The position numbers and the translations under genes are program-made. Of a stretch of 19,488 nucleotides of DNA, positions 3,427 through 19,488 are shown piece after piece. The stretch lies in NCBI GenBank assembly GCA_030452365.1, contig JAKDMK010000005.1, positions 1 to 19,488 on the forward strand. Direction: 5' to 3'. Below the pieces are notes generated by a model. That model did not search any database. It worked only from the letters and a program-made list of their open reading frames with translations, and was not told where the DNA came from. Position 1 is the stretch's first letter. Every line of letters starts with the position of its first letter. The DNA is from Nitrococcus sp. Lineage in GTDB: Bacteria > Pseudomonadota > Gammaproteobacteria > Nitrococcales > Nitrococcaceae.

Positions 3427-3431
3427 CAAAG

Positions 3432-3719: not shown

Positions 3720-4018
3720 AGGTAGAGTGGTCGCCCCTCGCGCTGGAACGAGTCGAGGTTATCGCGCGGTACATTGCGCAAGATAACCCGGATGCGGCCG
3801 TGCGTTGGGTGGTCGAGCGGTTTGGTACAGTGGAACGCCTGGCTGATTTTCCTGAAAGCGGTCGAGTCGTTCCTGAAGTGGGCATTGCTCGAATCCGAGA
3901 GGTGGTCTTCGGCGCGTATCGCGTGATTTATAGCGTGAAGGATAAGGTCGAGGTGCTCACGGTACGCCGGGGTAGTCAGTTGCTGCGGTTGAGCGAAATC
4001 GACGCTGAGCAGGCTTAG
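3716..4018 (+). CDS. Type II toxin, RelE/ParE superfamily
   Basis: A 100-aa protein starting at GTG 3716 and overlapping the antitoxin stop codon. The N-terminus VEWSPLALERVEVIARYIAQ is the paired-helix start of ParE/RelE toxins. The middle has FPESGRVVPE followed by IREVVFGAYRVIYSV, and the C-terminus is a beta-strand ending VLTVRRGSQLL. ParE members poison DNA gyrase and RelE members cleave mRNA at the ribosome. The EVVFGAYRVIY pattern and absence of an obvious RelE catalytic triad favour a ParE-like assignment, but the target cannot be decided from sequence alone. No truncation is seen, so the pair looks functional. It lies divergent from the Lon-like gene; Lon proteases are the usual degraders of such antitoxins, so the neighbourhood could be functionally relevant (inference). 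Confidence 0.88.
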   Translation: MKVEWSPLALERVEVIARYIAQDNPDAAVRWVVERFGTVERLADFPESGRVVPEVGIARIREVVFGAYRVIYSVKDKVEVLTVRRGSQLLRLSEIDAEQA

Positions 4019-4089
4019 GGCCAGCTAAAAGATTCTCAGTATTCTTACCCCACGCACTAGGCACACTTTTAGTCCGCCAGGAATCTGAT

Positions 4090-4626: not shown

Positions 4627-4732
4627 TGAAATAGGGGTCAGACCCCTATTTTCTCGCTTTTCTATTTCAGATGCTTGGCGCTAAAGTAAGTGCCATTCTG
4701 GTCTGATCCCTATTTCACCTATTTATTTCACG
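4617..4732. repeat. REP-like palindromic element between convergent genes
   Basis: The left arm contains a perfect 23-bp palindrome (4629-4651): AAATAGGGGTC, a central A, then GACCCCTATTT. The segment GTGAAATAGGGGTCAGACC (4626-4644) recurs inverted at 4700-4718 with one mismatch. Outer CGTGAAATA copies sit at 4617 and, inverted, at the right end (4732). The AATAGGGGTCAGACCCC core resembles, from memory, dispersed repeats linked to REP-associated IS200-type transposases. No transposase is nearby. Located between two convergent stop codons, it may act as a bidirectional terminator. Confidence 0.75.
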
Positions 4733-4733
4733 T

Positions 4734-5894: not shown

Positions 5895-6002
5895 GCCTGT
5901 AGTCCTAAGCGCGAGGGCGGTCGTTCGTAAGTCGCGCCGGCAAGCCTTGGGCTACCGGCGGGCAGGCGCAAGCGCCTTCAGCTACTGCTATGAGACCCGG
6001 TT

Positions 6003-7505
6003 TCAGCGGAGGTTGAGCGTCATATTGGGGCCGTTGCCGCTTGGTGTATCCGCGTCGAACCAGCGCTCGATCACCGTCTTGGTCTTGGTATAAAAGCGTA
6101 TCGCATCTTTGCCGTAGGCGTGCAGATCGCCATAGAAGGAGCCCTTGCTGCCGGTGAAGGCAAAAAACGGCAACGGCACCGGAATCGGGAGATTGACCCC
6201 GATCTGGCCGACGTCGATGTCGTGGCGATATTTTCGCGCCGCGGCCCCGGAATGGGTGAAAATCGAGGTGCCGTTGCCATAGGGATTGCGATTGACCAGC
6301 TCGATGGCTTGGTCGAGATCGGCAACGTGCATCACCGACAGCACGGGGCCGAAGATCTCCTCCTGGTAACAGCGCATCGCGGTCGTGACCTCGTCGATCA
6401 AGGTGGCGCCGACCCAGTTGCCAGCGGGGTAGCCCTCGACGGTGCAGCCGCGACCGTCGAGCAGCAGCTTTGCCCCTTCCCGCTCGGCTTCGCCTATAAT
6501 CTCTTCGACCCGCGCCTTGGCTTGGCGGCTGATGAGCGGTCCATAGCTGGCCGCGGGATCCGTCGCCGGGCCTGGGTGGAGCTTGGCGAGCGCCGATTGC
6601 AGCTCGCCCGTCCACGCCCGCGTCTGCTCGCCCACTAGCACCGCTACCGAGATGGCCATGCAACGCTGCCCGGCGGCACCGCAGGCGGCGCCGACCAGAT
6701 GCTCGATCACTTGCCGCTTATCGGCATCGGGCATGACCACCATGTGGTTTTTGGCGCCGACCATGCACTGGGCGCGCTTAAAGTGCGCCGTCGCGGTGCG
6801 ATAGATGTGTTGTCCCACCGTTGGTGAGCCGACGAAGGAGACCGCTTGAATATCCGGATGTTCGAGCAAGGCATCCGCTTGCGCCTTGCCGCCGTGGATG
6901 ATCTGCAGCAGTCCCGGCGGGAATCCGGCCTCCCGGAACAGCTCGGCCAGGCGTGTTGGCGTGAGCGGGTCTTGCTCGGAGGGCTTGAGCACGAAAGCGT
7001 TGCCGCAGCCGATCGCGAGCGGGAACATCCACAGTGGAATCATGGCCGGGAAATTAAACGGCGTGATTCCGGCGCACACGCCCAACGGCTGCCGCCAACT
7101 GGTGGTGTCCACCTTGGCAGCGACATTCGCCAAGGTCTCTCCCATGAGGAGCGTGGGCAGGCCCATGGCGTGCTCCACCACCTCGATTCCGCGCCAGATC
7201 TCGCCGTTGGCATCCGTAAGAGTCTTGCCGGTTTCCTCGGCCAAGGTGCGGGCGATCGCCTGCTGGTGTGCCTTGAGCAGTTGCTGGTAGCGCATCAGAT
7301 AGCGCGCCCGCTCGGGCACCGGCACTTCTCGCCAGTTACCCTGGGCCGCCTTGGCGGAGGCGATCGCGCGCTCGATCTCCACGCCGGGCGTGACCGGGCA
7401 CTCGGCGATCACGGCATTGGTGGCGGGATTGGTGACCTCAATCCACTCGTCGGCTTCGCTGTCGATGAATTCACCGTCGACAAAAAGCGGAACCTTCTTT
7501 GCCAT
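6003..7505 (-). CDS. mmsA: Methylmalonate-semialdehyde dehydrogenase (CoA-acylating)
   Basis: A 500-aa aldehyde dehydrogenase superfamily enzyme that converts methylmalonate semialdehyde to propionyl-CoA (and malonate semialdehyde to acetyl-CoA) with NAD and CoA, the last step of valine degradation. The oxyanion/cofactor segment [19 protein letters not shown] is at 148-166 (Asn151), the nucleophile Cys282 is in [11 protein letters not shown], and EEIFGPVLS is at 382-390. GAAGQRCMA and the PAMIPLW stretch are characteristic of MmsA among ALDHs. A purine-rich GGGGTGAG sits just before the ATG. First gene of the minus-strand pair with the acyl-CoA dehydrogenase, divergent from the HSD10-like gene across a 193-bp spacer holding a LiuR-like palindrome. 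Confidence 0.95.
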
Positions 7506-7608
7506 GATCTCACCCCTGAGCGTTCAGTGCCCCGCGCGGCGGGCTCTGCGGCGCGACCGCGCGGCGGTCTTAGCTTGCATGAGCCATCGTATAGTCAGTC
7601 TAATGAGG

Positions 7609-7624
7609 TGTACGTTAACGTCAA
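7609..7624. promoter_or_regulatory. Palindromic operator, LiuR-like (mmsA / HSD10 divergent region)
   Basis: TGTACGTTAACGTCAA contains the perfect palindrome ACGTTAACGT (7612-7621). It lies between the divergent mmsA and HSD10-like genes. MerR-family LiuR regulators of branched-chain amino acid degradation in gammaproteobacteria use ACGT-half-site palindromes of this kind, as far as I recall. A related site precedes etfB. No regulator gene is in the window, so the assignment is inference. Confidence 0.5.
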
Positions 7625-7698
7625 TTGGCGTTTCCCCCGAGCTGCTTTGCGAAGCTGGGAGTAGGGCTTGTGGGATTGCTCAATAGGAGCGCCCGCGG

Positions 7699-8469
7699 AT
7701 GCAAATCAAAGGCAATGTGTACTTGGTCACCGGTGGCGGCTCTGGGCTCGGCCAAGCGACGGCGCGGCGGCTGGCGGCGCATGGCGCTCGGCTGGTGATC
7801 GCGGATACCGATGCGCCGGCGGCTCGGACGCTCGCCGAGGAGCTCGGTGAGCACGGGCGTTGCGCCGTCGCTGACGTCACTCAGGCCGAGTCGATGCAGC
7901 AAGCCATCGCGACCGCCATGTCGGCCTTTGGCGCTTTGCATGGGCTTATCAACTGTGCGGGTGTCGTGGTGGGACGCAAGGTCGTGGATCGAGAGGGCGA
8001 GCCGCATCCGCTCGATCTCTTCGCTCGGGCGGTTGAGGTAAATTTGATAGGGACCTTCAATGCGATCCGCCTCGCGGCGAGAGTCATGGCGCAAGGGCCG
8101 CCCAATGCGGACGGTGAGCGCGGTGTCATCGTCAATTCGGCATCAGTGGCGGCCTATGACGGCCAGATCGGCCAGGCGGCTTATGCGGCCTCCAAGGCAG
8201 GCGTTGTGGGGATGACCTTGCCGATTGCGCGCGAGCTCGCGGCCTATGGCATCCGTGTGGTGACCATCGCGCCCGGCGTTTTTGCCACTCCCATGATGGC
8301 GGGATTGCCGGAGAAGGTGCGCGCGGTACTCGGCCAGCAGACACCATTCCCGTCCCGGCTCGGGCGTCCGAGCGAGTTTGCCGCGTTGGCCCAGCACATC
8401 ATTGAAAACGCCATGTTGAACGGCGAGACCATCCGGCTCGATGGCGCGCTGCGCATGCCGGCGAAGTAG
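7699..8469 (+). CDS. 3-hydroxyacyl-CoA dehydrogenase type 2 (HSD10-like SDR)
   Basis: A 256-aa short-chain dehydrogenase/reductase, NAD-dependent. The nucleotide-binding TGGGSGLG is at 11-18, NCAG at 85-88, and the catalytic tetrad is Asn115, Ser149 ([10 protein letters not shown]), Tyr162 and Lys166 (YAASK). The stretches [32 protein letters not shown] and [14 protein letters not shown] match the human HSD17B10/MHBD pattern almost block for block. Members oxidise 3-hydroxy-2-methylbutyryl-CoA (isoleucine pathway) and other short 3-hydroxyacyl-CoAs, which fits the neighbouring catabolic genes. AGGAG lies ten bases before the ATG. Read in the same direction as etfBA, 117 bp upstream of them. 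Confidence 0.9.
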
Positions 8470-8532
8470 CTCGCCGACTGTACGTGGTCGCTCCGAGTAG
8501 CGCTCATTGCACCAGGGCGCGCGAGTGATTTA

Positions 8533-8550
8533 ACGTTTGCGTAAACGTAA
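8533..8550. promoter_or_regulatory. Imperfect palindrome upstream of etfB, LiuR-like
   Basis: ACGTTTGCGTAAACGT (8533-8548) is a 16-bp palindrome with two mismatched pairs. It shares the core CGTWAACGT with the site between mmsA and the HSD10-like gene (CGTTAACGT there, CGTAAACGT here). It lies 37-54 bp before the etfB start. Electron-transfer flavoprotein genes are common members of branched-chain and fatty acid degradation regulons (LiuR, PsrA). Which regulator binds is inference. Confidence 0.45.
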
Positions 8551-8586
8551 TCCAACAGCGTCTAACCAATAGCAATGGCAATTCGC

Positions 8587-9336
8587 ATGAAGGTTCTGGT
8601 TCCAGTCAAGCGAGTGGTCGACTACAACGTCAAGGTTCGAGTCAAGGCCGATGGCAGCGGCGTCGAGACGGCAAATGTGAAGATGTCGATGAATCCCTTC
8701 GATGAGCTCGCAGTGGAGGAAGCCATTCGGCTGCAGGAGGCGGGCCGGGTCGAGGCGATCATCGCCGTCTCGATCGGTGCTTCGGCCTGTCAGGAAACCC
8801 TGCGTACGGCGCTTGCCATGGGTGCGGATCGTGCGCTGCTGGTGGCCACGGAAACGGAGCTTCAGCCCCTGGACGTGGCGAAAGTGCTCAAGGCCGTGGT
8901 GGTGCAGGAAACCCCGGAGCTGGTGATCATGGGCAAGCAGGCAATCGATGATGACTGCAACCAGACCGGGCAGATGCTGGCCGCATTGCTTGGCTGGGGG
9001 CAGGGAACCTTTGCCTGCGCGGTAGCGCTCGCCGAGGACTCGGTGACGGTCACCCGTGAAATCGATGGTGGCAATCAAACCGTACGCTTGAAGCTGCCGG
9101 CCGTCGTGACGGCGGATCTGCGGCTCAACGAGCCGCGTTACATCAAGTTGCCGAACATCATGAAAGCGAAGCAGAAACCGCTGCAGCGCCTGACCTTGCA
9201 GGAGCTTGGCGTTGAGATCACGCCGCGCATCAAAACGCTGCGGGTAGCCGAGCCACCGCCGCGGCGTGCCGGAGTGAAGGTCGCCAGCGTCGCCGAGCTG
9301 GTGGAAAAGCTGCGCATCGAAGCGAGGGTCCTCTGA
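8587..9336 (+). CDS. etfB: Electron transfer flavoprotein subunit beta
   Basis: A 249-aa beta subunit of the soluble ETF heterodimer, which collects electrons from acyl-CoA dehydrogenases and delivers them to ETF:ubiquinone oxidoreductase. It begins [20 protein letters not shown] and contains the conserved [43 protein letters not shown] and the recognition-loop segment [22 protein letters not shown] binds between the domains in this family. The start at 8587 gives the standard 249-aa length; an in-frame ATG at 8575 adds only MAIR, and neither has a clear ribosome-binding site. One base separates its TGA from the etfA ATG, so the pair is co-translated. Confidence 0.95.
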
Positions 9337-9337
9337 G

Positions 9338-10285
9338 ATGAGTGTGCTGGTCGTAGCCGAGCACGACAACACGACCTTGGCCGGCACGACATTATCGACT
9401 ATCACGGCGGCGCTTCTGTTCGCTGACCCGGTGGAGGTGCTGGTCGCCGGCTATGGTTGCCGCCCCGTGGCCGAGGCGGCGGCGCAGGTGCAGGGAGTGA
9501 GCAAGGTGTGGCACAGCGAGGCCGAGCACTACGCGCGACCGACCGCCGAGGACCTCGCCGCCCTGGTGGCGGATCTCGCTACCGGCTTTGCGCATGTGCT
9601 GGCCCCGGCCAGCACCTTCGGCAAGAACTTCCTGCCACGGGTCGCCGCGATGCTGGATGTGGCGATGATCTCGGATATCGTACAAATTGAGGGGCAGGAC
9701 TGCTTCGTTCGACCCATCTACGCCGGCAACGCGATGGCGACAGTACAGTCGAGCGATTCAATCAAGGTCGTGAGCGTACGTGCTGCGGCCTTCGATGCGG
9801 TCGCCAGTGGGACCAGCTCGGCGCCGATCGAGGCGCTGGAGGCCAAGCCGCACAGCGATCTTGCGCAGGTGGTGGGCGAGCAGCGCACGCGCTCTGAGCG
9901 CCCTGAGCTTACCGCCGCCGAGATCATTGTCGCGGGGGGGCGCGGCATGGGCAGCGTGGAGGGCTTTCGCCTGCTCGAGCAGATCGCCGATCGGTTGGGG
10001 GCGGCGATCGGAGCGTCGCGGGCGGCGGTGGACGCGGGCTACGTCCCCAATGACTATCAGGTGGGCCAGACCGGCAAGGTCGTCGCGCCCAAGCTCTACA
10101 TCGCGGTGGGAATCTCCGGCGCCATCCAGCACCTGGCGGGAATGAAGGACTCCAAGGTTGTAGTCGCGATCAACAAGGACGAGTCGGCGCCGATCTTCCA
10201 AGTTGCGGATTATGCTCTGGTGGCCGATCTGTTTCAGGCGCTGCCCGAGCTCGAGGCGGAGCTGAACCGGGTGCTGGCGAGCTGA
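9338..10285 (+). CDS. etfA: Electron transfer flavoprotein subunit alpha
   Basis: A 315-aa FAD-binding subunit of ETF. The N-terminal domain (to about residue 190) has [20 protein letters not shown]. The C-terminal FAD domain carries GGRGMGS at 200-206, [32 protein letters not shown] from 258 and [15 protein letters not shown] from 278, all hallmarks of the family. Normal length. It accepts electrons from the acyl-CoA dehydrogenase encoded 4 kb away in the same cluster and from other dehydrogenases. The only odd point is the lack of the ETF:quinone oxidoreductase gene nearby, which is often unlinked. Confidence 0.95.
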
Positions 10286-10294
10286 TCCTGCAGC

Positions 10295-10324
10295 TTGCGT
10301 ATCGGCGCATTTTGTTGCTATGTT
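10295..10324 (+). promoter_or_regulatory. Candidate promoter of the DUF5658-like gene
   Basis: TTGCGT (10295-10300) and TATGTT (10319-10324) are 18 bp apart. The predicted start site would fall at or next to the ATG at 10331, giving a leaderless or nearly leaderless mRNA, and no ribosome-binding site is visible before that ATG. Weak, motif-only evidence. Confidence 0.3.
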
Positions 10325-10330
10325 CACGTA

Positions 10331-10807
10331 ATGAGGGAACTATTTCTTGCAAGCGAGCGCCGCCGCGCCGAGCGACGCGAGCGTCGCGTATGGGGCAGCC
10401 GTCATTTCTGGCTCGGCGGCTGCCGCTACGGCCCGCGGCGTGAGGATGATCACGCCCGTCGCTACACCGATGTCTACGAACCCGGGGTGACGGCTAGCGT
10501 GGTTATCATCATGACCGGCTGCGCCTTGGATGCGCTAATGACCTTGTACTTGCTCGACAATGGCGCGGTCGAGGCCAATCCGCTAATGGCGGTGGCGCTA
10601 ACCCTCGGCGTGGGGGAATTTGTTCGGCTCAAACTGGCGATCACTGGCATAGGCCTATTGCTGCTCGCCATACACCACCGCTTCATTCTCTGGCAATGGC
10701 TGCGGGTACACCAGGCCATGAATTGCCTCGCTGCAGGTTATATGGTCTTGCTGATCTACGAGCTGGGATTGAGCCAATTGAGCCAATTGAGCCAATTGAG
10801 CCAGTAA
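10331..10807 (+). CDS. Small membrane protein, DUF5658-like
   Basis: A 158-aa integral membrane protein of unknown function. The N-terminal 45 residues are strongly charged (SERRRAERRERRV) and presumably cytoplasmic. Three hydrophobic segments follow at about 53-75, 99-115 and 129-146. The segment CALDALMTLYLLDNGAVEANPLMA is the recognisable DUF5658 signature. The C-terminus is four copies of Leu-Ser-Gln encoded by a 9-bp tandem repeat, which looks like a recent expansion that reached the stop codon. A TTG start at 10295 would add 12 residues but falls on the proposed -35 box, so ATG 10331 is preferred. No operon partner; a strong hairpin follows the stop. Confidence 0.7.
   Translation: MRELFLASERRRAERRERRVWGSRHFWLGGCRYGPRREDDHARRYTDVYEPGVTASVVIIMTGCALDALMTLYLLDNGAVEANPLMAVALTLGVGEFVRLKLAITGIGLLLLAIHHRFILWQWLRVHQAMNCLAAGYMVLLIYELGLSQLSQLSQLSQ
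10769..10804 (+). repeat. 9-bp tandem repeat (TTGAGCCAA x4) at gene 3' end
   Basis: Three exact copies of TTGAGCCAA (10769-10795) and a fourth ending in G (TTGAGCCAG) run directly into the TAA stop of the DUF5658-like gene. Each unit is in frame and encodes Leu-Ser-Gln, so copy-number change would lengthen or shorten the protein tail without shifting frame. Confidence 0.95.
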
Positions 10808-10808
10808 A

Positions 10809-10858
10809 GGGTCTGTTGGCATCCACCCACGACGCCGTGCGTGGATGCCAACAGGCCC
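10809..10858. terminator. Long hairpin between convergent genes, terminator-like
   Basis: CTGTTGGCATCCAC (10813-10826) pairs perfectly with GTGGATGCCAACAG (10841-10854) across a 14-nt loop. GGGT/GCCC extends the stem to 18 pairs including one G-T. It lies two bases after the stop of the DUF5658-like gene and eight bases from the folX stop on the other strand. A real T-run is lacking on the plus strand, and the minus strand has only TTT, so termination may be weak or factor-assisted. Confidence 0.55.
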
Positions 10859-10865
10859 AAGTCGC

Positions 10866-11246
10866 TCAAGTTCGCGATGCGGCCATGGTCAGCGACACAG
10901 AGTCAGTGAAGCGCAGCGCATGGGGCTTGTCCACCTCGACAGCCGCGCGCTTGACCCCATCGAATGCCAGTACCAGGTTCAAGACTTCGAAGACCAGTTT
11001 CTCCAGCAGCAGGAATCGATTGTTCTCCACCAAGGCAATGACCTGCTTGGTAATCGCCCTATAGTTCAACGCATGCTCAACGGCGTCCCGGCTAGCCGCG
11101 ACGCGGGCGTCGTAGTCGACTCGAATGCTGATGACGACGTCTTGCAGCTTCGTCTGCTCGTCCACGTTCAAGCCTATGAAGGTGCGCAGCCGCAGGTTCT
11201 TGATATGGATTTGGGAATGATCGAACGTGATATCGCGCGGCGCCAT
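10866..11246 (-). CDS. folX: Dihydroneopterin triphosphate 2'-epimerase (FolX-type)
   Basis: A 126-aa member of the FolB/FolX family, which form octameric tunnel-fold rings. FolX epimerises 7,8-dihydroneopterin triphosphate to the monapterin form; FolB is the dihydroneopterin aldolase. Near-identity blocks to FolX are IKNLRLRTFIGL, ALNYRAITK, VENNRFLLLEKL and VEVDKPHALRFTDSVSLT, so FolX is favoured over FolB. The frame is open to an ATG at 11315 (149 aa), but the extra N-terminus is Arg/Pro/Ala-rich and not family-like. The start at 11246 gives a typical length, with GAGG about 11 bases upstream. Convergent with the DUF5658-like gene; no folate genes adjacent. Confidence 0.85.
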   Translation of the reverse strand: MAPRDITFDHSQIHIKNLRLRTFIGLNVDEQTKLQDVVISIRVDYDARVAASRDAVEHALNYRAITKQVIALVENNRFLLLEKLVFEVLNLVLAFDGVKRAAVEVDKPHALRFTDSVSLTMAASRT

Positions 11247-11397
11247 CGCCCATGCTACCTCACTGTATTGCGGCCGCGCAGCCCGCCTTGGCGCGTATGC
11301 TTGCGCCGGGTGCATTGCCTTTGATTAATTCGTGGCGGGTTGTCGGCTAGACCATCCCGTACCGGCTAATTAGCATAGCGCCGGTTGCAGCTCCCTG

Positions 11398-11889
11398 TCA
11401 GCTTTGGCTGTTGACTTGGGCCGCGATGTCGCCCGAGGAGGTGAGGCCGCGTATCAAGCCCAGCCATTTCCTGGCCGATTTCTGAATCGCCTCCGGCATA
11501 CGGGATTGGCCCATGTGGTTCTCTATTCGCACCCCGATCCGCTCTTGGTACAGTAGCATCCAATTGCGCGTCACAAGGTAGACGCTCTCAACAATGATCA
11601 TCTCCGCCTCGATCCGCTCCAGCCGCTGAGTGACCGCCAGGAGGTCGCCTGGGCTCAATTCGAAGGACTTCGTTCGGTTGGTATCGTGGACCCGCAATCG
11701 CAGATCGCGCTTTGCGAGCCCGCCCGTGTGTGCGCCTAGCTGCTCCAGAAAACGATGCCGCGCCGAGGCGCGGAGTTGGTGCAGGATTGCGGGCGAAAAC
11801 CGGTCATCGATTAAGTCGTCCTGCACCACCGTGAAGGTCTGCAGGTAGTGATAGGCGGTAGCCTGCGCGGGTTTTTTGTCTTTATCCAT
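11398..11889 (-). CDS. Hypothetical protein, 163 aa
   Basis: I do not recognise this protein. It is soluble, mostly predictable as helical, with charged stretches such as LRASARHRFLEQLGAH, DLLAVTQRLERIEAEMIIVESV and IQKSARKWLGLI. It has no cysteines, no signal peptide and no obvious catalytic motif. The regular hydrophobic spacing in VTQRLERIEAEMIIVESVYLV suggests a helical hairpin or dimerisation helix. The start ATG lacks a strong ribosome-binding site. GC-rich codon use matches the neighbours, supporting a resident gene. It stands alone, divergent from the nitroreductase-like gene across 229 bp. Confidence 0.6.
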   Translation of the reverse strand: MDKDKKPAQATAYHYLQTFTVVQDDLIDDRFSPAILHQLRASARHRFLEQLGAHTGGLAKRDLRLRVHDTNRTKSFELSPGDLLAVTQRLERIEAEMIIVESVYLVTRNWMLLYQERIGVRIENHMGQSRMPEAIQKSARKWLGLIRGLTSSGDIAAQVNSQS

Positions 11890-12006
11890 GATATGGCTTC
11901 ATTTCACTTGGCCGATCGACGCGAGCCTAAGTTCGGTATCGGCTGGTTGATTGGCTCCCTCGTAGTAGCGTGACGGTTATATGAGCTCGGCGATACACGG
12001 CACCCA

Positions 12007-12025
12007 TTGCGCCTGGCGGGCGCAA
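12007..12025. other. Short perfect hairpin in a divergent intergenic region
   Basis: TTGCGCC (12007-12013) and GGCGCAA (12019-12025) form a 7-bp stem with a 5-nt loop. It lies between the hypothetical 163-aa gene and the nitroreductase-like gene, about 14 bp upstream of a TATGAT (12039-12044) that could be a -10 box for the latter. It could be an operator or part of a leader; no family is recognised. Confidence 0.35.
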
Positions 12026-12118
12026 GCGCTGGCTTTGTTATGATGGCCACCACGATTCTTAGACTCGTAGCCGATGATTTTGCATTGTTGTCCAGTCTCA
12101 TCCTGCAAGGGAGGCCAT

Positions 12119-12715
12119 ATGAGCGTTGAGCAGGCGTCCGGTGTTGTCGGTGCGCAAAGCGCTGCCGCACAAGAAGTGGCACGCGCGATACGCAGCCGGC
12201 GTTCCATTAATCGTTTCCAGCCCCAGGCGCCGCCGCGGGAGATAATCCGGCGGGCGCTCGATCTTGCACGCTGGGCGCCAAACCACTATTTGACCGAGCC
12301 GTGGCACTTCTACCTCCTCGGTTCCAAGACCAAGCAAGCCTTAGTCGAGCTCAGTGCCGAGCTCGCCACCGCCGCTAACGGGCCCAGCGCCGGCGAGGCC
12401 AAACGCCGGCGCTGGGCCGCCATTCCCGGTTGGCTGGCCGTGACCTGTGATCAGAGCCCGGATGCGCTGCGGGCGCGCGAAGACTATGCGGCCTGTGCCT
12501 GCGCCATTCATAACTTGTCACTCTACCTCTGCAGCGAAGGCATTGGCGTGAAATGGACCACAGGTGCGGTAACGCGCGAACGCCGCTTTTATGACTTGCT
12601 CTGGATCGATCCCGAGCTTGAAATCTTGGTCGGCCTGCTTTGGTACGGCTATCCGGACGAAGCGCCGCAATCGCGTCGCCGACCCTTGGAGCACAGCCTG
12701 GTCGAGCTTCCATGA
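12119..12715 (+). CDS. Nitroreductase family protein (FMN-dependent)
   Basis: A 198-aa protein of the nitroreductase/NADH-dependent flavin oxidoreductase fold, expected to work as a homodimer binding FMN. The N-terminal FMN-phosphate motif IRSRRSINRFQ is at 24-34, followed by the ALDLARWAPNHYLTEPWHFYL block (46-66). The C-terminal GVKWTTG (143-149) and ILVGLLWYGYPDE are the other conserved parts. The middle ARAREDYAACACAIHNL-like helix (from about 119) is typical of the dimer interface. The substrate is unknown; family members reduce nitroaromatics, quinones or flavins. An upstream in-frame ATG exists at 12074, but GGGAGG lies just before ATG 12119, which decides the start. Confidence 0.85.
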   Translation: MSVEQASGVVGAQSAAAQEVARAIRSRRSINRFQPQAPPREIIRRALDLARWAPNHYLTEPWHFYLLGSKTKQALVELSAELATAANGPSAGEAKRRRWAAIPGWLAVTCDQSPDALRAREDYAACACAIHNLSLYLCSEGIGVKWTTGAVTRERRFYDLLWIDPELEILVGLLWYGYPDEAPQSRRRPLEHSLVELP

Positions 12716-13018
12716 GGCAGGGTTCAGCGCCGAGCATTAAGGCCTAATGTTTTTGGTTTTTGCGATGATTTCTGGAGCGTTGCCGGCCTTAGAGCCGGCG
12801 CAACGTGATGCGCAGCGGCTTCGCCGTACCGGCGCCGACCCGGGTCGGAACTGCGGGCCTGAGCGTGGGTCTCATAGGGCAAGGCGGAGGTTTTCCGTGT
12901 GCGGGGATGCGCAACAGCGCATCCCTTCTGAGGTGATCGTAGTGGCCCCGATTGGCGCGGATGTGGTGGTAGCCGCGGAGGAGGATGCAAGGGTGTATCT
13001 GGAAGTGAGGTCCACTGC
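12716..13018 (+). other. Hairpin-rich stretch without a convincing gene
   Basis: Between the nitroreductase-like and glycosyltransferase genes. Visible structures: CGTTGCCGGC / GCCGGCGCAACG stem-loop (12778-12805, two-base bulge), perfect palindrome CCGACCCGGGTCGG (12835-12848), and GGGATGCGC-AACA-GCGCATCCC (12904-12925, nine perfect pairs with a tetraloop). A 91-codon frame (12747-13022) ends in an ATGA overlap with the glycosyltransferase, and a 42-codon frame lies at 12808-12936. Both are unlike any family I know, and the longer uses several AGG codons, so neither is annotated as a gene. A structured leader is possible. Confidence 0.4.
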
Positions 13019-14311
13019 ATGAACATCGTGATGATGACCAATACCTACCTACCTCATGTTGGCGGTGTTGCGCGTTCGGTGGATGCGTTTACGCGCGCTT
13101 ACCGCGAGCGGGGGCACCGGGTGCTGGTCGTCGCCCCGGATTTCCGGGATACGCCGGAGGATGAAGTGGATGTCCTGCGCATACCGGCGATCCAGAATTT
13201 CAATGGCAGTGATTTTTCGGTAATGCTGCCTATTCCGGGCTACCTAGATTCAGCGCTCGATCGGTTTCGCCCGCAGATCATCCATAGCCACCACCCGTTT
13301 CTGGTCGGCACAGCGGCGCTGCGTGCCGCTTCGCTGCGGGATTGTCCGCTCGTATTCACCCATCACACCATGTACGAGCAGTACACTCATTATGTTCCTG
13401 GCGACTCACCCGCCTTGCGGCGCTTCGTGGTGCAGATCTCTACGAGTTATGCCAATCTCTGCGATCGGGTATTCGCACCCAGCGAGAGTATCGCCGAGGT
13501 GCTAAAGCGCAGAGGCGTGCGCATCCCCGTAGAGGTTATCCCCACCGGTGTCGTGCTCGATCAGTTCAGCAGCGGTGACGGGGCATTCTGGCGCCGGCGC
13601 CTTGGTATCCCCCAGAGGGCGTTCGTCATCGGCCATGTTGGGCGCCTGTCGCCGGAGAAGAACCTGGTTTTTCTGGCGCGCGCCGTGGCAAGGGCTATAC
13701 GCGGTCGGCGCGACATCCATTTCCTGGTGGTCGGGGGTGGGCCTTCGGCAAGCGAGATCCGCCGCGTGTTCGACGCGGCCAGGCTGGCAGATCGCCTGCA
13801 TTTGCCCGGCACGCTGATCATGCCCGAGCTGGCTGATGCCTATCACGCTATGGATGTATTCGCGTTTGCCTCGCTCAGCGAAACTCAGGGCATGGTGCTT
13901 GCCGAAGCCATGGCTGCCGGCCTGCCGGTCGTAGCCGTGGACGCGCCCGGCGCCCGAGAGATCGTGATGGATGGCTACAATGGCTACCTGTTGCCGACGG
14001 TCGATGTGGCGGCGTTCGCTTCCGCGTTGCGCAATGTTATGGCTTTGAACCGCAGCCAGCGTATGGCCTGGACCCAGGCCGTGGCGAGTACCGCCGGGCG
14101 CTACCGCCTGGAGCGCTCGGTGGATGCGGTATTACGGGTCTATCGGGCGCTCGAGACAGATCAACCAGGGTGTGGCCCGGAAGCTCACGAACCCTGGCAG
14201 GCCAATATTCGCCGCTTCAAGGCCGAGTGGGAGCTGCTCAAGGGCGTTGCTCAGGCTGCCAGCGCGGCGGCATCCGGCCGCCGCGGCGAGCGGCGTCAGC
14301 GCGCGATTTGA
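13019..14311 (+). CDS. Glycosyltransferase family 4 (GT-B), diacylglycerol glucosyltransferase-like
   Basis: A 430-aa retaining GT-B glycosyltransferase. The N-terminal acceptor domain starts with the glycine loop LPHVGGVARSV (11-21) and contains IIHSHHPFLVGTAAL and FTHHTMYEQYTHYVP. The C-terminal Glycos_transf_1 domain has GHVGRLSPEKNL (205-216; Arg209 and Lys214 contact the nucleotide-sugar phosphates) and the EX7E motif Glu288/Glu296 in SETQGMVLAEAMAAG. The HSHHPFL and HHTMYEQY pattern resembles 1,2-diacylglycerol 3-glucosyltransferases and PimB-type mannosyltransferases, so a membrane glycolipid acceptor is plausible but unproven. The last 55 residues are a basic, helical extension. GAGG lies about nine bases before ATG 13019. 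No other glycan genes are adjacent. Confidence 0.85.
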   Translation: MNIVMMTNTYLPHVGGVARSVDAFTRAYRERGHRVLVVAPDFRDTPEDEVDVLRIPAIQNFNGSDFSVMLPIPGYLDSALDRFRPQIIHSHHPFLVGTAALRAASLRDCPLVFTHHTMYEQYTHYVPGDSPALRRFVVQISTSYANLCDRVFAPSESIAEVLKRRGVRIPVEVIPTGVVLDQFSSGDGAFWRRRLGIPQRAFVIGHVGRLSPEKNLVFLARAVARAIRGRRDIHFLVVGGGPSASEIRRVFDAARLADRLHLPGTLIMPELADAYHAMDVFAFASLSETQGMVLAEAMAAGLPVVAVDAPGAREIVMDGYNGYLLPTVDVAAFASALRNVMALNRSQRMAWTQAVASTAGRYRLERSVDAVLRVYRALETDQPGCGPEAHEPWQANIRRFKAEWELLKGVAQAASAAASGRRGERRQRAI

Positions 14312-14462
14312 GCGGCCCCAGCGGCCCTTTGCGGCGATCCTGCAGCCGGCGGTCCACCCCCAAATGGGTGAGCAGGGCTGGCGGTTCGCCGCTAACCCAG
14401 GTGCCACGCCCGATCACGTCAACGGCTTTGATTAGCCGGGCCGGATATTGGTTTCAGTCAGC

Positions 14463-14543
14463 CACATGGGCGCGGTTGAAGTGCCCATTGTGCTATCGTG
14501 GCAATACTTCGTCTAACCGCTGTCCGTTGCGCAACGCTAACAG
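14463..14543 (+). other. Two stem-loops upstream of ribA
   Basis: CACATGGGC (14463-14471) pairs with GCCCATTGTG (14483-14492, one bulged T). Further on, CGTTGCGCAACG (14525-14536) is a perfect 12-bp palindrome flanked by CTGT/ACAG arms (14520-14543). They end 25 bases before the ribA start. An FMN riboswitch would be the expected leader, but its conserved AGGGTGAA and ACCGACGGT-like blocks are absent. Function unknown. Confidence 0.35.
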
Positions 14544-14567
14544 AATGCCGGGCCGAATACGCAGGTC

Positions 14568-15197
14568 ATGATGATGGATGATCGCAGCCGCGATAGACAG
14601 CCGGCGCTCGCTGAGGTGCGGCAGGTGGCGCATGCCTTGCTGCCTACCGCTTGGGGCGAGTTCATCATCTACGGCTTCGAGCAGACCCGCGGCGGCGAGC
14701 ACTTGGCGCTGGTTATGGGTGATCTGGCCGCGGAGGCGGCGCTGTTGGTTCGCGTTCATTCCGAGTGTTTGACGGGTGATGCGTTGTTCAGCCGCCGTTG
14801 CGATTGCGGAGCGCAGCTCGCGGCGGCGATGGAGCGCATCGGCGAAGCCGGGCGCGGTGCGCTCATCTATCTGCGCCAGGAAGGCCGCGGCATCGGTCTG
14901 CTCAACAAGATAAGGGCCTATCGGCTGCAGGATGAACAGGGTATCGATACGGTCGAGGCCAATGAGGCGCTCGGTTTTGCCGCTGATGCGCGCGACTATG
15001 CACTGGCGGGCACCATCTTGCGCAGCCTCGGTGTAATTCGAGTGCGCCTCATGACGAATAACCCGCGTAAGATGGAAGGCCTCATGCGCGCCGGGGTAGA
15101 GATTGTAGAACGCCTGCCGCTGTTAGCGGGCCATAACGCTCACAATCACGCTTACCTATCGACCAAGGCAATTAAGTTCGGTCACCTTTTCGACTAG
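14568..15197 (+). CDS. ribA: GTP cyclohydrolase II
   Basis: A 209-aa stand-alone enzyme that converts GTP to 2,5-diamino-6-ribosylamino-4(3H)-pyrimidinone 5'-phosphate with release of formate and pyrophosphate, the first step of riboflavin synthesis. Zinc ligands are Cys67, Cys78 and Cys80 in [36 protein letters not shown] (101-118) and the GTP-binding [12 protein letters not shown] (161-172) are diagnostic. No RibB domain is fused. The gene opens with three consecutive ATG codons (14568, 14571, 14574) after a short CAGG, so the exact start is uncertain by two residues. It is the last high-GC gene before the AT-richer module on the opposite strand. Confidence 0.93.
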
Positions 15198-15387
15198 GGC
15201 CACCGCCAGCTCCACCTGCTCCGGCAACACTTCAGCCAGCGAAGAAAGCGCTACATGCATGACTGGGCTGCTGTCGTCATCGGCTCCTCCCTTCAACCAC
15301 CGTTTTCGTTCGCAGACAATTCCCATTTGTGTCAAACATCGCCCATGCCCACAGGCATGCTCAACTGCATTTTGTTGGTAATTGCGT

Positions 15388-16683
15388 CTAATCAATTCCG
15401 ATTTTCTTGCCTTTTTCTTTCGCTAATAATTTGCCTTTTAACGACGTTCCAACTTTACGTTTGTTACTTATAGCCCTACCGATACGAGACTTCCGAAATC
15501 GTAATCTATAAACGTGAGAGCCCTTTTGTTTATTGGTCAGCAGCATCCCTTTTAGCCGCTGACCGAGCCCCGACAACATCCGCGTGCTCCTTTCCGACGC
15601 GTCAAAGTCGAACCGCTTAAACAACCTTGCAACTACCGGGCTGCTGCGTATATCTATCACAATGCGAGGCACTCGGAAGTGAAATTTCTCCGATTCAGAT
15701 ATTTTTTTTTTAAAATCTACCAGTGCAGCGCTTAACCATCGCCCGACGTTGTATAGCGTCCGAGTTCCACGTTCTACAGAACCACAGTCAACACCCTTTA
15801 GCTCCTCAACCACTTGCGTCGCTGAAGGCCGGTCGTTTGGGTCAATTGCCAGCATATCTCCAATTAGTTTAGCTAGTTTTTTGTTCTTCACGCGCAGTCC
15901 ACCCAAACCCGGCGTTTTCCCGTCAAGAACAGACACTGCTAAATACTGGTATTTTGACTTATTGAACTTTGGAAGTCGTCCATGAAAGTATTGATAATAA
16001 ATAATCCCCAACGAGAATATGTCCGACTTGCAGGTCACTTTGGCTCGCAGCTCATCGCCCCCTGTTTTTATATAACGGAGCAACTCCGGTGAGTAATAAA
16101 CAAAATCGCTGACGACTTCCCCTGGGTTCTCATTAACTTCCCCCTCAAAGAAGCTTTCGTCAAAATCGATTAGTTTTGCGACAAATTCCCCTTCCGCCGT
16201 TTTATTGATCAATAAATTGTTTGGCTTGAGATCCCCGTGCGCAATTCGCATCTGATGCAGGATTGCTACTGAATGCGCTGCTGTCGTAGCGATTACCAAT
16301 TTATTCTCAAATGGCAATTCAGCAATGCCGCTTACATCAAATGAGCTGACATCTACCTTAAGCGCAATCTTGTAATAAAAGGAGTCCACGCGAACGAATT
16401 CTATCGGCACGATTAAATTACCGCCAAGGCGAACGCAATTACGTAGTTCGGCCATGAACCGATTTTGCTCCTTCTCAAAGCGCTGACACTTCTCCATGAG
16501 CATCCGTTTTCTCTTCTCAGAACCCGGTGCTTGCCCTGGAACTGGATACTTTGGAGACAGAAATTGCTTTATAAAGAAGTGTTCCTTGCCTTTCGTGGCA
16601 AACGCCCACACCGACCGCCCACCATTGGTGGTCGTGCCGTCACTGTATAACCGATAACCGTTGATCACTTCGCCTATTTTCAT
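15388..16683 (-). CDS. Hanks-type Ser/Thr protein kinase of a VWA-PP2C-kinase triad
   Basis: A 431-aa soluble kinase. A glycine-rich nucleotide loop spans about 16-25, the ATP lysine is Lys39 (FFIKQF), the catalytic loop HGDLKPNN is at 149-156 (Asp151, Lys153, Asn156), and the metal aspartate Asp173 is in IDFDES (DFG changed to DFD, as is usual in this bacterial subgroup). YYSPELL is at 196-202, Asp221 in SDIFSLG, Arg285 in DPNDRPSA. All catalytic residues are present, so it should be active. After the domain (about 300) comes a linker and a very basic tail: residues 384-431 hold 17 Lys/Arg against 2 acidic residues, suggesting nucleic-acid or membrane binding. No transmembrane segment. An A10 tract lies in codons 325-328. 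The ATG overlaps the phosphatase stop (ATGA), so the two are coupled. Local composition is AT-rich compared with the flanks. Confidence 0.9.
   Translation of the reverse strand: MKIGEVINGYRLYSDGTTTNGGRSVWAFATKGKEHFFIKQFLSPKYPVPGQAPGSEKRKRMLMEKCQRFEKEQNRFMAELRNCVRLGGNLIVPIEFVRVDSFYYKIALKVDVSSFDVSGIAELPFENKLVIATTAAHSVAILHQMRIAHGDLKPNNLLINKTAEGEFVAKLIDFDESFFEGEVNENPGEVVSDFVYYSPELLRYIKTGGDELRAKVTCKSDIFSLGIIYYQYFHGRLPKFNKSKYQYLAVSVLDGKTPGLGGLRVKNKKLAKLIGDMLAIDPNDRPSATQVVEELKGVDCGSVERGTRTLYNVGRWLSAALVDFKKKISESEKFHFRVPRIVIDIRSSPVVARLFKRFDFDASERSTRMLSGLGQRLKGMLLTNKQKGSHVYRLRFRKSRIGRAISNKRKVGTSLKGKLLAKEKGKKIGID
15702..15711 (-). other. A10 homopolymer (possible slippage site) in the kinase gene
   Basis: On the coding strand the sequence reads TTT then ten A (Phe-Lys-Lys-Lys-Ile). 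An extra A leads to Lys-Lys-Lys-Asn-Ile-stop; loss of one A gives 15 new residues after the lysines and then TGA. Either event yields an intact kinase domain without the basic C-terminal tail. A runs of nine or more are known sites of polymerase slippage in bacteria. Confidence 0.9.
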
Positions 16684-17906
16684 AACAAATCACCGTCATG
16701 AAGGTATTGGTCGTACGTGTCTCGGTACCGGCTCCATGCCTCTTTCGTGTTTTCCTTCGCCACGGCTTTAAGAGAGGCGAGTTCTCGTTCCAGTTGCGCT
16801 TCTTTGTCTTTGAGTGCTTTTATGGGCCCAAGGAATTCTCCATCTAGTTTTTCCAAACGGCCTTTATAATTGCGTTTTAGATTCTCGAAGCTACTAAAGC
16901 CAACTGGATGAAGAATGATAGATACGTCATCACCGGCTGCAGCCAGTAGACGCTCAGCGAGTTTGTTTGCCCAATCCTGCATAGTTTCGGATGAATTAAG
17001 AGCGCTCAGCACAACAAATTCAAAGTCCATAGGGGTCGGCAGGTAATTGAAAGCGCCGTCACTTGCGCAGATTAAAATAGCCGGATTATCGCACAATAAA
17101 CTTTTGCGTTGAATACAGTTTGGGGTCTTCTCACTGATATAGTTGGTTAGGGGCGGATCCGCCCAGATTGCTTCAAAGGAATCATAGTTCCCTTTTGCTT
17201 CATCGCGCGAGACCTGGCGGAGGCCGTCAGCGTGTAACACATAGCATCGCGAGTCGCCCGCCCAAAATGCAGTTATTTCTCTTTCCGGTTCAGTGCGATA
17301 AACCCACCCAGCCAAAGTTGACGGCAGGTTGCGCAGAATTTTGCTCTTTAAACGACTAGGGGATTGTGCTTCTGTGATCTCACGGTTCATTTTTTCGAAA
17401 GCATAGTCAATCGTCTTACTAAGGACATCTATGTGGTGGGCCATGCTGGGGCCGCATACGGCCCCATTTAACAAATAGGCTGAACAACCGCCAACTTTTG
17501 CAACCACATACGGTTTTTGTTGATTAGAAGGTTGATGCTTCCCAGCTCCAGGCGATGTCCCAACTCCAAGCGATGCCGTAGTATTACCATCGGGCGGAGT
17601 TTGTAACCAGGCCCCCTTAAAAAAAACGAGGAGCACTTCAAGTAGGTTGGTCGCCGCTATCTTGGCCCCGGACGCCAGTCGACCACCAACATGGACTTGG
17701 CGGCTGCCCGCGCCACCAACGCCGTCAGAAACGGCAATGACGCCGAACGAATAATCGTCTGAGAGTAAAATTAAAGGTGGTCCATCTTCACCTTTTCCGT
17801 TTATTTTTTCACTCCATATTGACAAAGTTGATATCGAGTTATTTCCTCCATCGGTTACCGTGTGCCGCTCACGTTGTCCATCTCCACCGCCAGTACAGCC
17901 TACCAT
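16680..17906 (-). CDS. PP2C-type protein phosphatase of the triad
   Basis: A 408-aa metal-dependent Ser/Thr phosphatase. GED at 39-41 stands in the place of the usual NED metal motif. FGVIAVSDGVGGAGS holds the DGxGG metal motif (Asp61-Gly62). FWAGDSRCYVLHADGLRQVSRD (215-235) is the conserved central strand-turn, ILICASDGAFNYL gives Asp283-Gly284, and AGDDVSII (324-331) supplies the last metal aspartates. The catalytic core therefore looks complete. A Gly/Pro/Ser/Thr/Asn-rich insertion occupies about 102-131. Residues 340-395 (NYKGRLEKLDGEF, KDKEAQLERELASLKAVAKE) form a likely coiled coil, a docking surface for the kinase or VWA partner (inference). GAGGAG precedes the ATG by nine bases. It lies 195 bp after the VWA gene and overlaps the kinase start. 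It presumably reverses the kinase's phosphorylation. Confidence 0.87.
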   Translation of the reverse strand: MVGCTGGGDGQRERHTVTDGGNNSISTLSIWSEKINGKGEDGPPLILLSDDYSFGVIAVSDGVGGAGSRQVHVGGRLASGAKIAATNLLEVLLVFFKGAWLQTPPDGNTTASLGVGTSPGAGKHQPSNQQKPYVVAKVGGCSAYLLNGAVCGPSMAHHIDVLSKTIDYAFEKMNREITEAQSPSRLKSKILRNLPSTLAGWVYRTEPEREITAFWAGDSRCYVLHADGLRQVSRDEAKGNYDSFEAIWADPPLTNYISEKTPNCIQRKSLLCDNPAILICASDGAFNYLPTPMDFEFVVLSALNSSETMQDWANKLAERLLAAAGDDVSIILHPVGFSSFENLKRNYKGRLEKLDGEFLGPIKALKDKEAQLERELASLKAVAKENTKEAWSRYRDTYDQYLHDGDLL

Positions 17907-18101
17907 AATGCTTCGCTCCTCTTTTAGAGAAGAACGGGTTTTCGCTTCGCCAACAGCTTTTCACAGAGTTTTGGTTCGTCATTGCCCGCGAGATAGCCTC
18001 ATAAAGGTTGATTCATCTGAATGAATGTCAGAAACCATCTTCCTTCTGGAGTCGCGGAGTTTGCAGGGCCGGGCATCACGAAACCGTTGCGTGGGCGTGA
18101 A

Positions 18102-18917
18102 TTAGATACTGTGGGCTAGCATGTTCATTATGAAATCGTAGTCCATTTCTCCGAGGCCATCTCCACCCCTTGAAGGGAAATGTATGACTTCTTCCCAGTG
18201 TGCAGCAATATCAGACCATGGATACATATCCGGTGCAAAGAGAATCAGGCGACGAGCGCTCGCATCAATCCCTTCACCATCCCACTGATCGGTGAGTTCA
18301 TCGAAGGATTTTGGTATTTCCGCCGGATAATTGGGCGGCTGTTCAGTAACAGCGCGTTCCAAGGTATGTGTGCTGGTGTCAGTCCAAACGACAATGGCAT
18401 GTCGCCTCCGGTCTCCCCCGCTGGTCCAACTTGATTGTAAAGCCAATGCCAGGGCTTCCAGCCCGTTTTCAGGCTCGTCTCCACCCCCCTCGGCAATTAT
18501 CTCGGTAACAAAATTTTTGTACTCAGCAATTTGATCAGGTAATTCAAAAAAATCCGATACTTCCAACCAATTGGGCCCGTCAGCCCATACATCGCCAAAT
18601 GCTATGACGCGAATGCGCAGCTCGTCGACGCGCTTGTTCATTTCCTCCATTTTAGCCGAAAGGTCCTCATGGAACTTTAAAGCGTTGGCCTTTACCCGTC
18701 TGACTAGGGGTACCATGCTGCCTGTCTTGTCGATACAAAAGACCAGATCGACGGCATACTTCATACTCGGCGCTTGGGCCTCTGACTTATCCTGCGCAGC
18801 CACCTCTGGCGTATCCTGCGCAGCCACTTCTGTCTTATGCTGCAGTGGACTCTCTGGCTTAGGCTGCACCGGCCCCTCTGACTTCGGCTGCACTGGCCCC
18901 TCTGACTTATCCTGCAT
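18102..18917 (-). CDS. von Willebrand factor A (VWA) domain protein of the triad
   Basis: A 271-aa soluble protein. After a repetitive Gln/Lys/Glu/Pro-rich N-terminus comes one VWA domain. MIDAS parts: LVFCIDKTGSM (residues 58-68), GGGDEPENG (144-152) and WTDTSTHT (178-185). This DxTGSM...GGGDxPE...TD combination is a distinct VWA subclass (also in alpha-kinase VwkA-type proteins), not the DTSGSM form of classical TerY. The MIDAS residues are present, so metal-dependent ligand binding is expected. The frame opens at ATG 18947, but GGAGG sits five bases before ATG 18917, so the latter is chosen; the longer form would add ten residues. First gene of the AT-rich minus-strand set with PP2C and kinase. 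Likely a scaffold or sensor bringing the kinase/phosphatase pair to targets (inference). Confidence 0.85.
   Translation of the reverse strand: MQDKSEGPVQPKSEGPVQPKPESPLQHKTEVAAQDTPEVAAQDKSEAQAPSMKYAVDLVFCIDKTGSMVPLVRRVKANALKFHEDLSAKMEEMNKRVDELRIRVIAFGDVWADGPNWLEVSDFFELPDQIAEYKNFVTEIIAEGGGDEPENGLEALALALQSSWTSGGDRRRHAIVVWTDTSTHTLERAVTEQPPNYPAEIPKSFDELTDQWDGEGIDASARRLILFAPDMYPWSDIAAHWEEVIHFPSRGGDGLGEMDYDFIMNMLAHSI
18771..18914 (-). repeat. Octapeptide repeat region of the VWA protein (six units)
   Basis: 24-bp in-frame units encode QDKSEGPV, QPKSEGPV, QPKPESPL, QHKTEVAA, QDTPEVAA and QDKSEAQA, consensus Q-x-K-x-E-x-x-x. The DNA units are alike but diverged. The preceding HHKPEAIM looks like a seventh, decayed unit. 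The region is probably an extended, charged linker before the VWA domain. Confidence 0.9.
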
Positions 18918-18970
18918 AATTGCCTCCGGTTTATGGTGCATAGTCATTTGCCGTTAAGGTATTTGCCGGC

Positions 18971-19001
18971 TGCGAAGCCATAGGGCAACGGATACTTCGC
19001 A
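18971..19001. promoter_or_regulatory. Inverted repeat upstream of the triad operon
   Basis: TGCGAAG (18971-18977) and CTTCGCA (18995-19001) are perfect inverted 7-mers with 17 bases between them, 54-84 bp upstream of the preferred VWA start. On the minus strand a TTGCCC...AAATAC pair with 18-bp spacing lies nearby as a weak promoter candidate. It could be an operator or hairpin; nothing identifies the regulator. Confidence 0.3.
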
Positions 19002-19052
19002 AACCTCTTGCTGACGTCGCCATACTGCTCCGGCCGTCAAATCTCAGTCTAC

Positions 19053-19430
19053 TATGAGGCACTTCGAAAAGCCTGTTTTCTGACGTTCGTATTTGGAGTT
19101 CTCTAATATTGAGCCAAACACGGGTTGTCCACCAGGAAGCATCGTAGGGCAATTAAGGAGATGTTGTTTGCCGCCAGGAAGCGGAGAGAGGTGAGCGAGC
19201 GCCTGGGCGGCAGGCTGGCCGAGATCGAAGCGCGCATGGATTTTGCGGCGCTGGTGCCGGAGGCGGATGGGATAGCGCTGCACGCAAGCAGTGCGCTGGG
19301 CGGATGAACTGTATCGCCCAGGGAGCCGATGGTGCATATTGTGGTGCTGAAGCGCCTGACGGCAACAGGCGGGGTGTTGCTCAACAGCGCTATGTCGGGA
19401 CGGCGATTAGGGCGTTTCTCGGCAACCGAA
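19053..19430 (+). mobile_element. Decayed IS5-family-like insertion sequence remnant
   Basis: GAGGCACTTCGAAAAGCC at 19056 looks like an IS5-type left terminal repeat, preceded by CTA, a typical IS5 target. From ATG 19161 a frame reads EMLFAARKRREVSERLGG-like sequence and RLAEIEARMDFAALVPEA, which resembles a transposase N-terminus, and stops at 19307. The next recognisable piece, EPMVHIVVLKRL, is in another frame, and no complete DDE domain follows before the tRNA gene. The element is therefore frameshifted and lacks its 3' part. Family assignment is from pattern memory and tentative. Confidence 0.4.
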
Positions 19431-19433
19431 ATC

Positions 19434-19488
19434 TGGTCGGGGTGAGAGGATTTGAACCTCCGACCACCTGCACCCCATGCAGGTGCGC
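19434..19488 (-). tRNA. tRNA-Pro(GGG), 5' part cut by the window edge
   Basis: On the minus strand the sequence runs from the end of the D arm (GCGC) through anticodon stem-loop CCTGC-ATGGGGT-GCAGG (anticodon GGG), variable loop, T arm GGAGG-TTCAAAT-CCTCT, acceptor strand CACCCCG, discriminator A and encoded CCA (19434-19436). It closely follows E. coli proL. The 3' end points toward the kinase/phosphatase/VWA module, the side where tRNA-targeting integrases insert islands. Confidence 0.93.

Follow-up and report, generated by a model that had tools for sequence, protein, structure and literature searches.

The closest described counterparts of the locus reported here are modules in which a von Willebrand factor A (VWA) protein, a PP2C phosphatase and a Ser/Thr kinase are encoded by neighboring genes. 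One such module is TerY-P, as found in the R478 Ter locus, where two TerY genes, one TerY gene with a TerY_C domain and the genes for a 545-residue PP2C and a 499-residue kinase are adjacent; TerY-P, which is also CoCoNuT-linked, is reported in H. pylori as well (PMC4978471), its kinases can reportedly carry a C-terminal zinc ribbon or OB-fold (PMC11090510), and activity against T7-like phages is reported for TerY-P-like triads (Gao et al. 2020, via PMC7699616 and PMC11090510). In E. coli K-12, yegL-pphC-yegI likewise brings VWA, PP2C and kinase together in one locus, and PphC is reported to dephosphorylate YegI (PMC13232886). Related in composition are actinobacterial GAP1-N2-linked loci, reported with adjacent kinase, PP2C and standalone vWA genes and a zinc ribbon accompanying the kinase (PMC7159879), the kinase-phosphatase module KKP (PfkA-PfkB-PfpC), which is reported to defend by kinase toxicity (PMC11341870), and the archaeal Arn module of VWA, RanBP2-type finger, kinase and phosphatase (PMC12852372, PMC6509490). 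Here we describe a VWA-PP2C-kinase triad from Nitrococcus sp., encoded within a stretch of 19,488 nucleotides (assembly GCA_030452365.1, the whole of contig JAKDMK010000005.1, positions 1 to 19,488; hereafter the window). We put at roughly 60% the probability that its three genes form an operon-like phosphoswitch organized around a VWA scaffold and belong to a bacterial family that is widespread and distinct from TerY-P. The triad is made up of the following features.

15388-16683, minus strand: kinase gene; 431 residues, Hanks-type, HGD and DFD motifs, basic C-terminal tail (residues 300-431)
16680-17906, minus strand: PP2C phosphatase gene; 408 residues, predicted long C-terminal helix ending W391, Y394, Y398
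16680-16683, minus strand: ATGA, in which the PP2C stop codon and the kinase start codon overlap
18102-18917, minus strand: VWA gene; 271 residues, or 281 if the open reading frame (ORF) is read from 18947
18779-18916, minus strand: 24-bp tandem repeat encoding the N-terminal octapeptide linker of the VWA protein

An initial annotation, made from the DNA alone, had described three consecutive minus-strand genes with the last two overlapping by ATGA, and this arrangement is borne out, the three frames being open both in the window and in N. mobilis. The expectation that the genes would recur together was assessed by searching an alignment of 17 VWAs against GTDB genomes, which returned 237 loci, of which the best 80 were retained; exclusion of one truncated contig from the same genus (L006, genome G003) left 79 loci for counting. 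Gene content was assigned by local VWA, PP2C and kinase profiles and gene order by ORF start, with overlapping long ORFs (L081, L083) possibly misplaced. All three genes stand on one strand in 64 of the 79 loci, and 58 of these 64 have the order VWA-PP2C-kinase, two with a doubled VWA. The triads come from seven phyla: Bacteroidota (16), Actinomycetota (16), Cyanobacteriota (11), Bacillota (10), Pseudomonadota (6), Chloroflexota (3) and Spirochaetota (2). Homologs are thus linked rather than mostly apart, the window VWA groups with triad-linked VWAs rather than with unrelated families, and chance neighborhood is ruled out by the recurrence of the three genes together across phyla: they are a real, widespread conserved unit. 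The Herpetosiphon plasmid pHAU01 has the identical gene order at 47, 29 and 37% identity, its triad (Haur_5138-5140) being followed by a zinc-finger ORF, and distances between the proteins correlate over 65 rows (r of 0.76, 0.76 and 0.70; maximum of 2000 permutations 0.19), shared species history being included in these values. A tree of the joined proteins unites the window with N. mobilis at a support of 100 and places it firmly with nothing else, the next fork, at 88%, being with one Arthrobacter. As an additional observation, a tandem VWA pair is placed ahead of PP2C and kinase in L063 (1168-2612) and L078 (7983-9534).

The VWA protein, from which the survey was seeded, is assigned by Pfam to VWA_4 (PF25106) at 3e-9. 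The metal ion-dependent adhesion site (MIDAS) recognized in the initial annotation is well founded, as D73, T75, S77, D119 and D190 are invariant in 80 aligned VWAs (the 79 loci and the window) and D157 is retained in 71 of the 80. The predicted fold most closely resembles integrin beta I-like domains, the fold matches listed being integrins only. Translation more likely begins at 18917, the second in-frame ATG, than at 18947, because GGAGG is positioned 5 nt upstream and the closest listed relative (P0001) starts there. The tandem repeat behind the linker (24 bp, 5.8 copies, 77% matches) encodes Ser/Thr in most of its octapeptides, making a phosphorylation tail possible as judged from sequence. 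Both this linker and the long basic kinase tail, put forward at the outset as additions to the module, are present in the window yet prove to be local: in N. mobilis the VWA (231 residues) is without octapeptide repeats and the kinase has 360 residues.

The enzymes had been called complete, and the residues support this. The Pfam PP2C_2 match to the window phosphatase reaches just 21.0 bits, below the cut-off of 24, with the PP2C metal-site motifs present; Asp61 is conserved in 65 of 66 sequences and Asp218, Asp283, Asp326 and Asp327 in all 66. The tail described as a coiled coil is predicted as one long helix (residues 340-398; block pLDDT, the predicted local distance difference test, 92-97) and turned out to be a family trait. 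The database entry for the N. mobilis PP2C (P0131) has 254 residues relative to a frame of 454 (L007 8880-10244), and its start is probably misannotated. The kinase is recognized as Pfam Pkinase at 5e-21 and keeps Lys39 in 67 of 68 sequences and Asp151, Asn156 and Asp173 in 68 of 68; DFD replaces DFG, with D175 in 65 of the 68 kinases. Its tail is indeed basic, with an isoelectric point of 11.4 over residues 300-431 and 34 K/R against 10 D/E.

The composition of this unit is that of TerY-P, and a zinc-binding element is found nearby in both, which led us to ask how far the likeness extends to the proteins themselves. It is smallest for the VWA: the family VWA is of the PF25106 type, not TerY, and Pfam finds no TerY_C, a metal-binding domain that not every TerY carries, in the window protein while finding it in R478. 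A profile of the 80 VWAs reaches TerY2 only at E 8.2 and TerY1 at E 8.6, with YegL and TerYC not listed, whereas the control match between YegL and TerY1 is 7e-26; the hhalign values are 64% for TerY2 (109 columns) and 49% for YegL. For the PP2C, which seems to lie below recognition, the profile gives the R478 phosphatase 10.3 bits and does not list PphC, the yardstick itself being weak as PphC and the R478 PP2C match each other at only 5e-5; BLAST against the R478 PP2C gives 0.003 and hhalign 74%. The kinase profile finds the R478 kinase with 44.6 bits (E 4.6e-13; 74 bits with another profile) and YegI with 11.4 bits, while pairwise comparison with the R478 kinase gives a BLAST value of 5e-4 and an hhalign value of 96.5%, relative to 3e-5 for the control pair of YegI and the R478 kinase. 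By sequence, then, the kinase is a distant relative and the PP2C at best a very distant one, with kinship beyond the kinase at best remote. Membership in TerY-P by descent was rejected because the VWA profile misses TerY and YegL, the PP2C yardstick being weak; PADLOC is a poor arbiter here, as the R478 and E. coli TerY-type proteins also lack a specific match. The same profiles set the triad apart from yegL-pphC-yegI, where YegL is TerY-like. The description of the locus as a TerY-P-like module therefore holds for its composition and is not supported for descent, and the view that its VWA is not a classical TerY is upheld.

Two further differences from TerY-P concern the surroundings. When a zinc finger is present in this triad family it is usually a separate gene, and TerD stands beside the triad in just 3 of the 64 loci. 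In these three, all Bacteroidales (L069, L071 and L085, at 5810-6511 in the last), the TerD-domain gene lies directly behind the finger gene, so that Ter genes and the triad are physically linked in these relatives. The absence of other Ter genes, noted initially, thus applies to the window but not to these Bacteroidales loci or to the genus, as TerD genes occur elsewhere in four of five Nitrococcus genomes, in the window's own genome by one weak match. In N. mobilis three of them are located at G001:C1:1627822-1631983, approximately 210 kb from the triad, and similar sets are found in G002 and G004.

The zinc finger proved to be the usual fourth member of the unit, going beyond the initial annotation. 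Among the 49 triads with a same-strand gene no more than 250 bases after the kinase, this gene encodes a four-cysteine zinc finger in 34, compared with 35 of 764 other genes (p 3e-29), with the four cysteines at the start of the protein; a 4-base overlap with the kinase stop is seen in 11 of the 34 genes. The RanBP2 spacing C-x2-C-x3-N-x4..7-C-x2-C is found in 22 of the 49 first genes and 16 of the 764 background genes (p 9e-20), and 12 of those 16 themselves stand downstream of the triad in the same loci. The 11 cyanobacterial four-cysteine genes have a spacing other than RanBP2. A looser count, admitting any plus-strand ORF with a loose motif in the 64 triad loci, gave 45 with the motif downstream, 4 upstream only and 15 with none.

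A finger profile built from 16 hand-picked fingers out of 43 loci retrieved RanBP2-type chains from the PDB (RBCK1, NPL4, TAB2, TRABID, Nup153 and RanBP2), with ArnA (5a8i) at E 0.024 and rubredoxins among the weak matches. Pfam and PADLOC scans covered 84 of 125 downstream chain genes and 42 of 52 upstream ones. PF00641 was matched by 7 of the 84 downstream genes (best 5e-6), two of these, seen in full, lying below the cut-off; zinc ribbons were also found upstream of triads, in 8 of the 42 genes. The C-terminal modules behind the finger vary, with S1 repeats in L016 and Sel1 repeats in 4 of the 84 genes, as do the adjoining downstream genes, which include DUF4407 (8 of 84) and TerD (3 of 84). 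DUF4407 genes follow triad and finger gene in L018, L024, L025, L028, L046, L049, L052 and L063, and their product is a possible membrane partner.

The Nitrococcus loci depart from this pattern, as no zinc-finger gene was found beside the triad in the window or in N. mobilis, and five of the six surveyed Pseudomonadota triads (N. mobilis included), at three places of the tree, are without a finger gene nearby. Across five Nitrococcus genomes PF00641 was not found above its cut-off in any, a search that is insensitive since triad-side fingers scored by Pfam also miss it (for example, 16.9 against 27 bits); weak matches below the cut-off occurred in all five genomes and in 13 of 14 controls. The suggestion of a self-contained switch is doubtful, because in relatives the kinase is usually followed by a fourth gene.

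The phosphoswitch that we favor would operate as follows. The VWA protein would act as the scaffold and, through the MIDAS surface of its integrin beta I-like fold, would hold a partner by a stretch that is acidic or phosphorylated. The kinase would phosphorylate the VWA protein, the partner or both, the Ser/Thr-bearing octapeptide linker being a candidate target in the window, and the PP2C, perhaps docked through its long C-terminal helix, would reverse this, such that the balance of the two enzymes would set a tight or a loose VWA complex. In most lineages the zinc-finger protein encoded after the kinase would be the likely output arm. In Nitrococcus, because no finger gene was found beside the triad, the output may lie elsewhere, in an unlinked protein or in the basic kinase tail. 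In support are the intact genes with their retained catalytic and MIDAS residues, the conserved linkage and order, the correlated distances, a kinase-VWA fusion in one relative (L059), the enrichment of the finger gene after the kinase and the analogous Arn module; the unlike base composition is likewise an observation. We infer the binding and phosphorylation partners, what the tails do, and which signal and benefit the switch would have.

A narrower version of this reading, which we regard as tentative and rather doubtful, would make the family the equivalent, in bacteria, of the archaeal Arn switch: a complex of VWA and RanBP2 finger toggled by a dedicated kinase and PP2C, in which the finger gene swaps C-terminal modules (S1, Sel1, membrane segments, coiled coil) and neighbors (DUF4407, TerD) across several phyla and Nitrococcus keeps a three-gene core after finger loss. 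The archaeal set of ArnA and ArnB with ArnC and PP2A resembles the quartet of this triad family in combining vWA, RanBP2-type finger, Hanks kinase and phosphatase; the ArnA finger alone is reported to bind unphosphorylated ArnB, with ArnC and PP2A setting ArnB phosphorylation (PMC12852372). It differs in that ArnA has an FHA domain, ArnB a beta-sandwich and a helical domain, and the phosphatase is PP2A rather than PP2C, while the Nitrococcus triad is without a finger gene; no FHA domain was found among the 25 of 44 Pfam families listed for the scanned downstream genes.

Several findings weigh against our interpretation. The VWA profile found no ArnB in the PDB up to E 10, no sequence kinship being detectable in that search, and the distance correlation retains shared species history. 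Furthermore, 15 of the 79 loci are without at least one triad gene: 11 have the VWA alone, two VWA and kinase, one VWA and PP2C at a contig end, and the remaining one (L059) two VWAs, one of them fused to a kinase (885-2687; kinase 1-313, VWA 376-600; second VWA gene ahead). The 11 lone VWAs indicate that the VWA can work without the kinase/PP2C pair; ten come from Bacteroidota, several, as judged by eye, among housekeeping genes. In Raineya-type Cytophagales (L008, L009 and L010, at approximately 8000, and 5320 in L010), a lone VWA is found amid housekeeping genes, which hints that it may function independently of kinase and PP2C.

An alternative is that the triad is a phage-defense module, its kinase and phosphatase acting as toxin and antitoxin as in KKP or TerY-P, with an infection cue received through the VWA freeing the kinase to stop growth or phage replication. 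A defense role is possible, and the reported activities of TerY-P-like triads and KKP provide the precedent, with the qualification that KKP has two kinases and that no VWA is named in the abstract of PMC11341870. The triad is also low in GC content (0.48, against 0.62 for bases 1-15197 of the contig; 0.45-0.53 at third codon positions, against 0.72-0.80 in four other contig genes), its VWA is patchy in the genus (three of the five Nitrococcus genomes searched, and none of 54 other relatives' genomes searched), and copies occur on plasmids and, in one case, together with two integrases on a contig labeled "Bacteriophage sp." and marked unverified. Single defense-like neighbors are AbiGi and, in L083, TIR with a STAND-like protein. 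Still, the triad's VWA and PP2C match no PADLOC model, many copies are chromosomal, and PADLOC matches among the scanned downstream genes, for which there is no control set, are few (AbiGi, PDC-S31, LmuB-like, PtuA-like and mad2-like); two scans of IMG/VR returned no relative. On balance we consider this reading unlikely. A phage gene set was rejected on the same IMG/VR scans, yet the unverified phage-labeled contig (L109, MT836186.1, a gut contig) carries PP2C-kinase-VWA at 109-2783, adjoining two integrases and a MazF-like gene; this contig may be bacterial. On a mobilizable Calothrix plasmid (L110, 5989-11333) the VWA, the kinase and a 1045-residue frame with PP2C have a type IV secretion gene and a DNA methyltransferase close by, and in Crossiella (L083, 2168-4996) genes for a TIR protein and a STAND-like NTPase are found upstream of the triad.

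Could the family be a divergent TerY-P that shares its ancestor with the known triad, works in metal or stress sensing and has a VWA and a PP2C altered past recognition? The same three activities, often in the same order, the kinase match to R478, the PP2C and TerY2 alignments and the three TerD genes directly behind finger genes all suit this idea, as does the reported C-terminal zinc ribbon of TerY-P kinases (PMC11090510), which matches the place of the finger gene. It has to contend with a VWA profile that finds TerY at nothing better than E 8 where YegL and TerY1 find each other readily, a different Pfam VWA family without TerY_C, and the rarity of TerD beside the triad, and we judge it improbable. 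Least probable is that Nitrococcus received the quartet, lost the finger gene and retains three functionless genes: the missing finger gene and the patchy presence in the genus would fit, but all three genes have open frames, both in the window and in N. mobilis, with kinase and PP2C also open in G003 (where the VWA is split over two contig ends), catalytic residues are retained, a block upstream of the VWA gene is conserved, and five Pseudomonadota triads at three tree positions are likewise without a finger.

The phosphoswitch reading, in its broader form, indicates that VWA-phosphatase-kinase triads occur in at least two families, such that TerY-P is not the sole switch of this kind. It names a fourth, zinc-finger partner gene for most of the lineages surveyed, and it makes testable whether one kind of VWA/zinc-finger phosphoswitch is common to bacteria and archaea. 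In the open-access literature, as far as coverage, which was partial, extended, nothing was recognized as a VWA triad family with a fourth gene, although PMC7159879 may include members: the GAP1-N2-linked genes may belong in part to the family of the Nitrococcus triad. They differ in being described only with GAP1-N2 and only from actinobacteria, and no GAP1 was found among the Pfam families listed for the scanned downstream and upstream genes or in ten picked proteins.

The remaining features of the locus lie upstream of the triad.

18963-19088, no strand: block upstream of the VWA gene, 78% conserved in N. mobilis
19437-19488, minus strand: tRNA gene truncated by the contig end, with the 3' part present; anticodon judged by eye to be GGG (Pro)

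The location of the triad in N. mobilis differs from that in the window, and outside the 126 conserved upstream bases the flank is unlike, making the block a candidate promoter or leader. In G003 the triad has the same flank as in the window, with 87-89% DNA identity beside the triad, 80-83% within the kinase and PP2C genes and a portion of the VWA gene and 87% over the rest; a search of the genus for an empty site detected the ribA flank in G003 alone. These findings fit acquisition or repeated loss of the triad. Integration at the tRNA was rejected, as no repeat of the tRNA end was found at the other border within 15000-19488 and the G003 match stops at window position 19289, short of the tRNA. 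The adjoining tRNA gene of the initial annotation is matched by Rfam at 29.2 bits against a cut-off of 29, with the 5' end lost at the contig end; ARAGORN reports no tRNA in the window. The tRNA probably adjoins the triad without being part of it, and in N. mobilis the triad and the matching tRNA are approximately 2 Mb apart on the contig.

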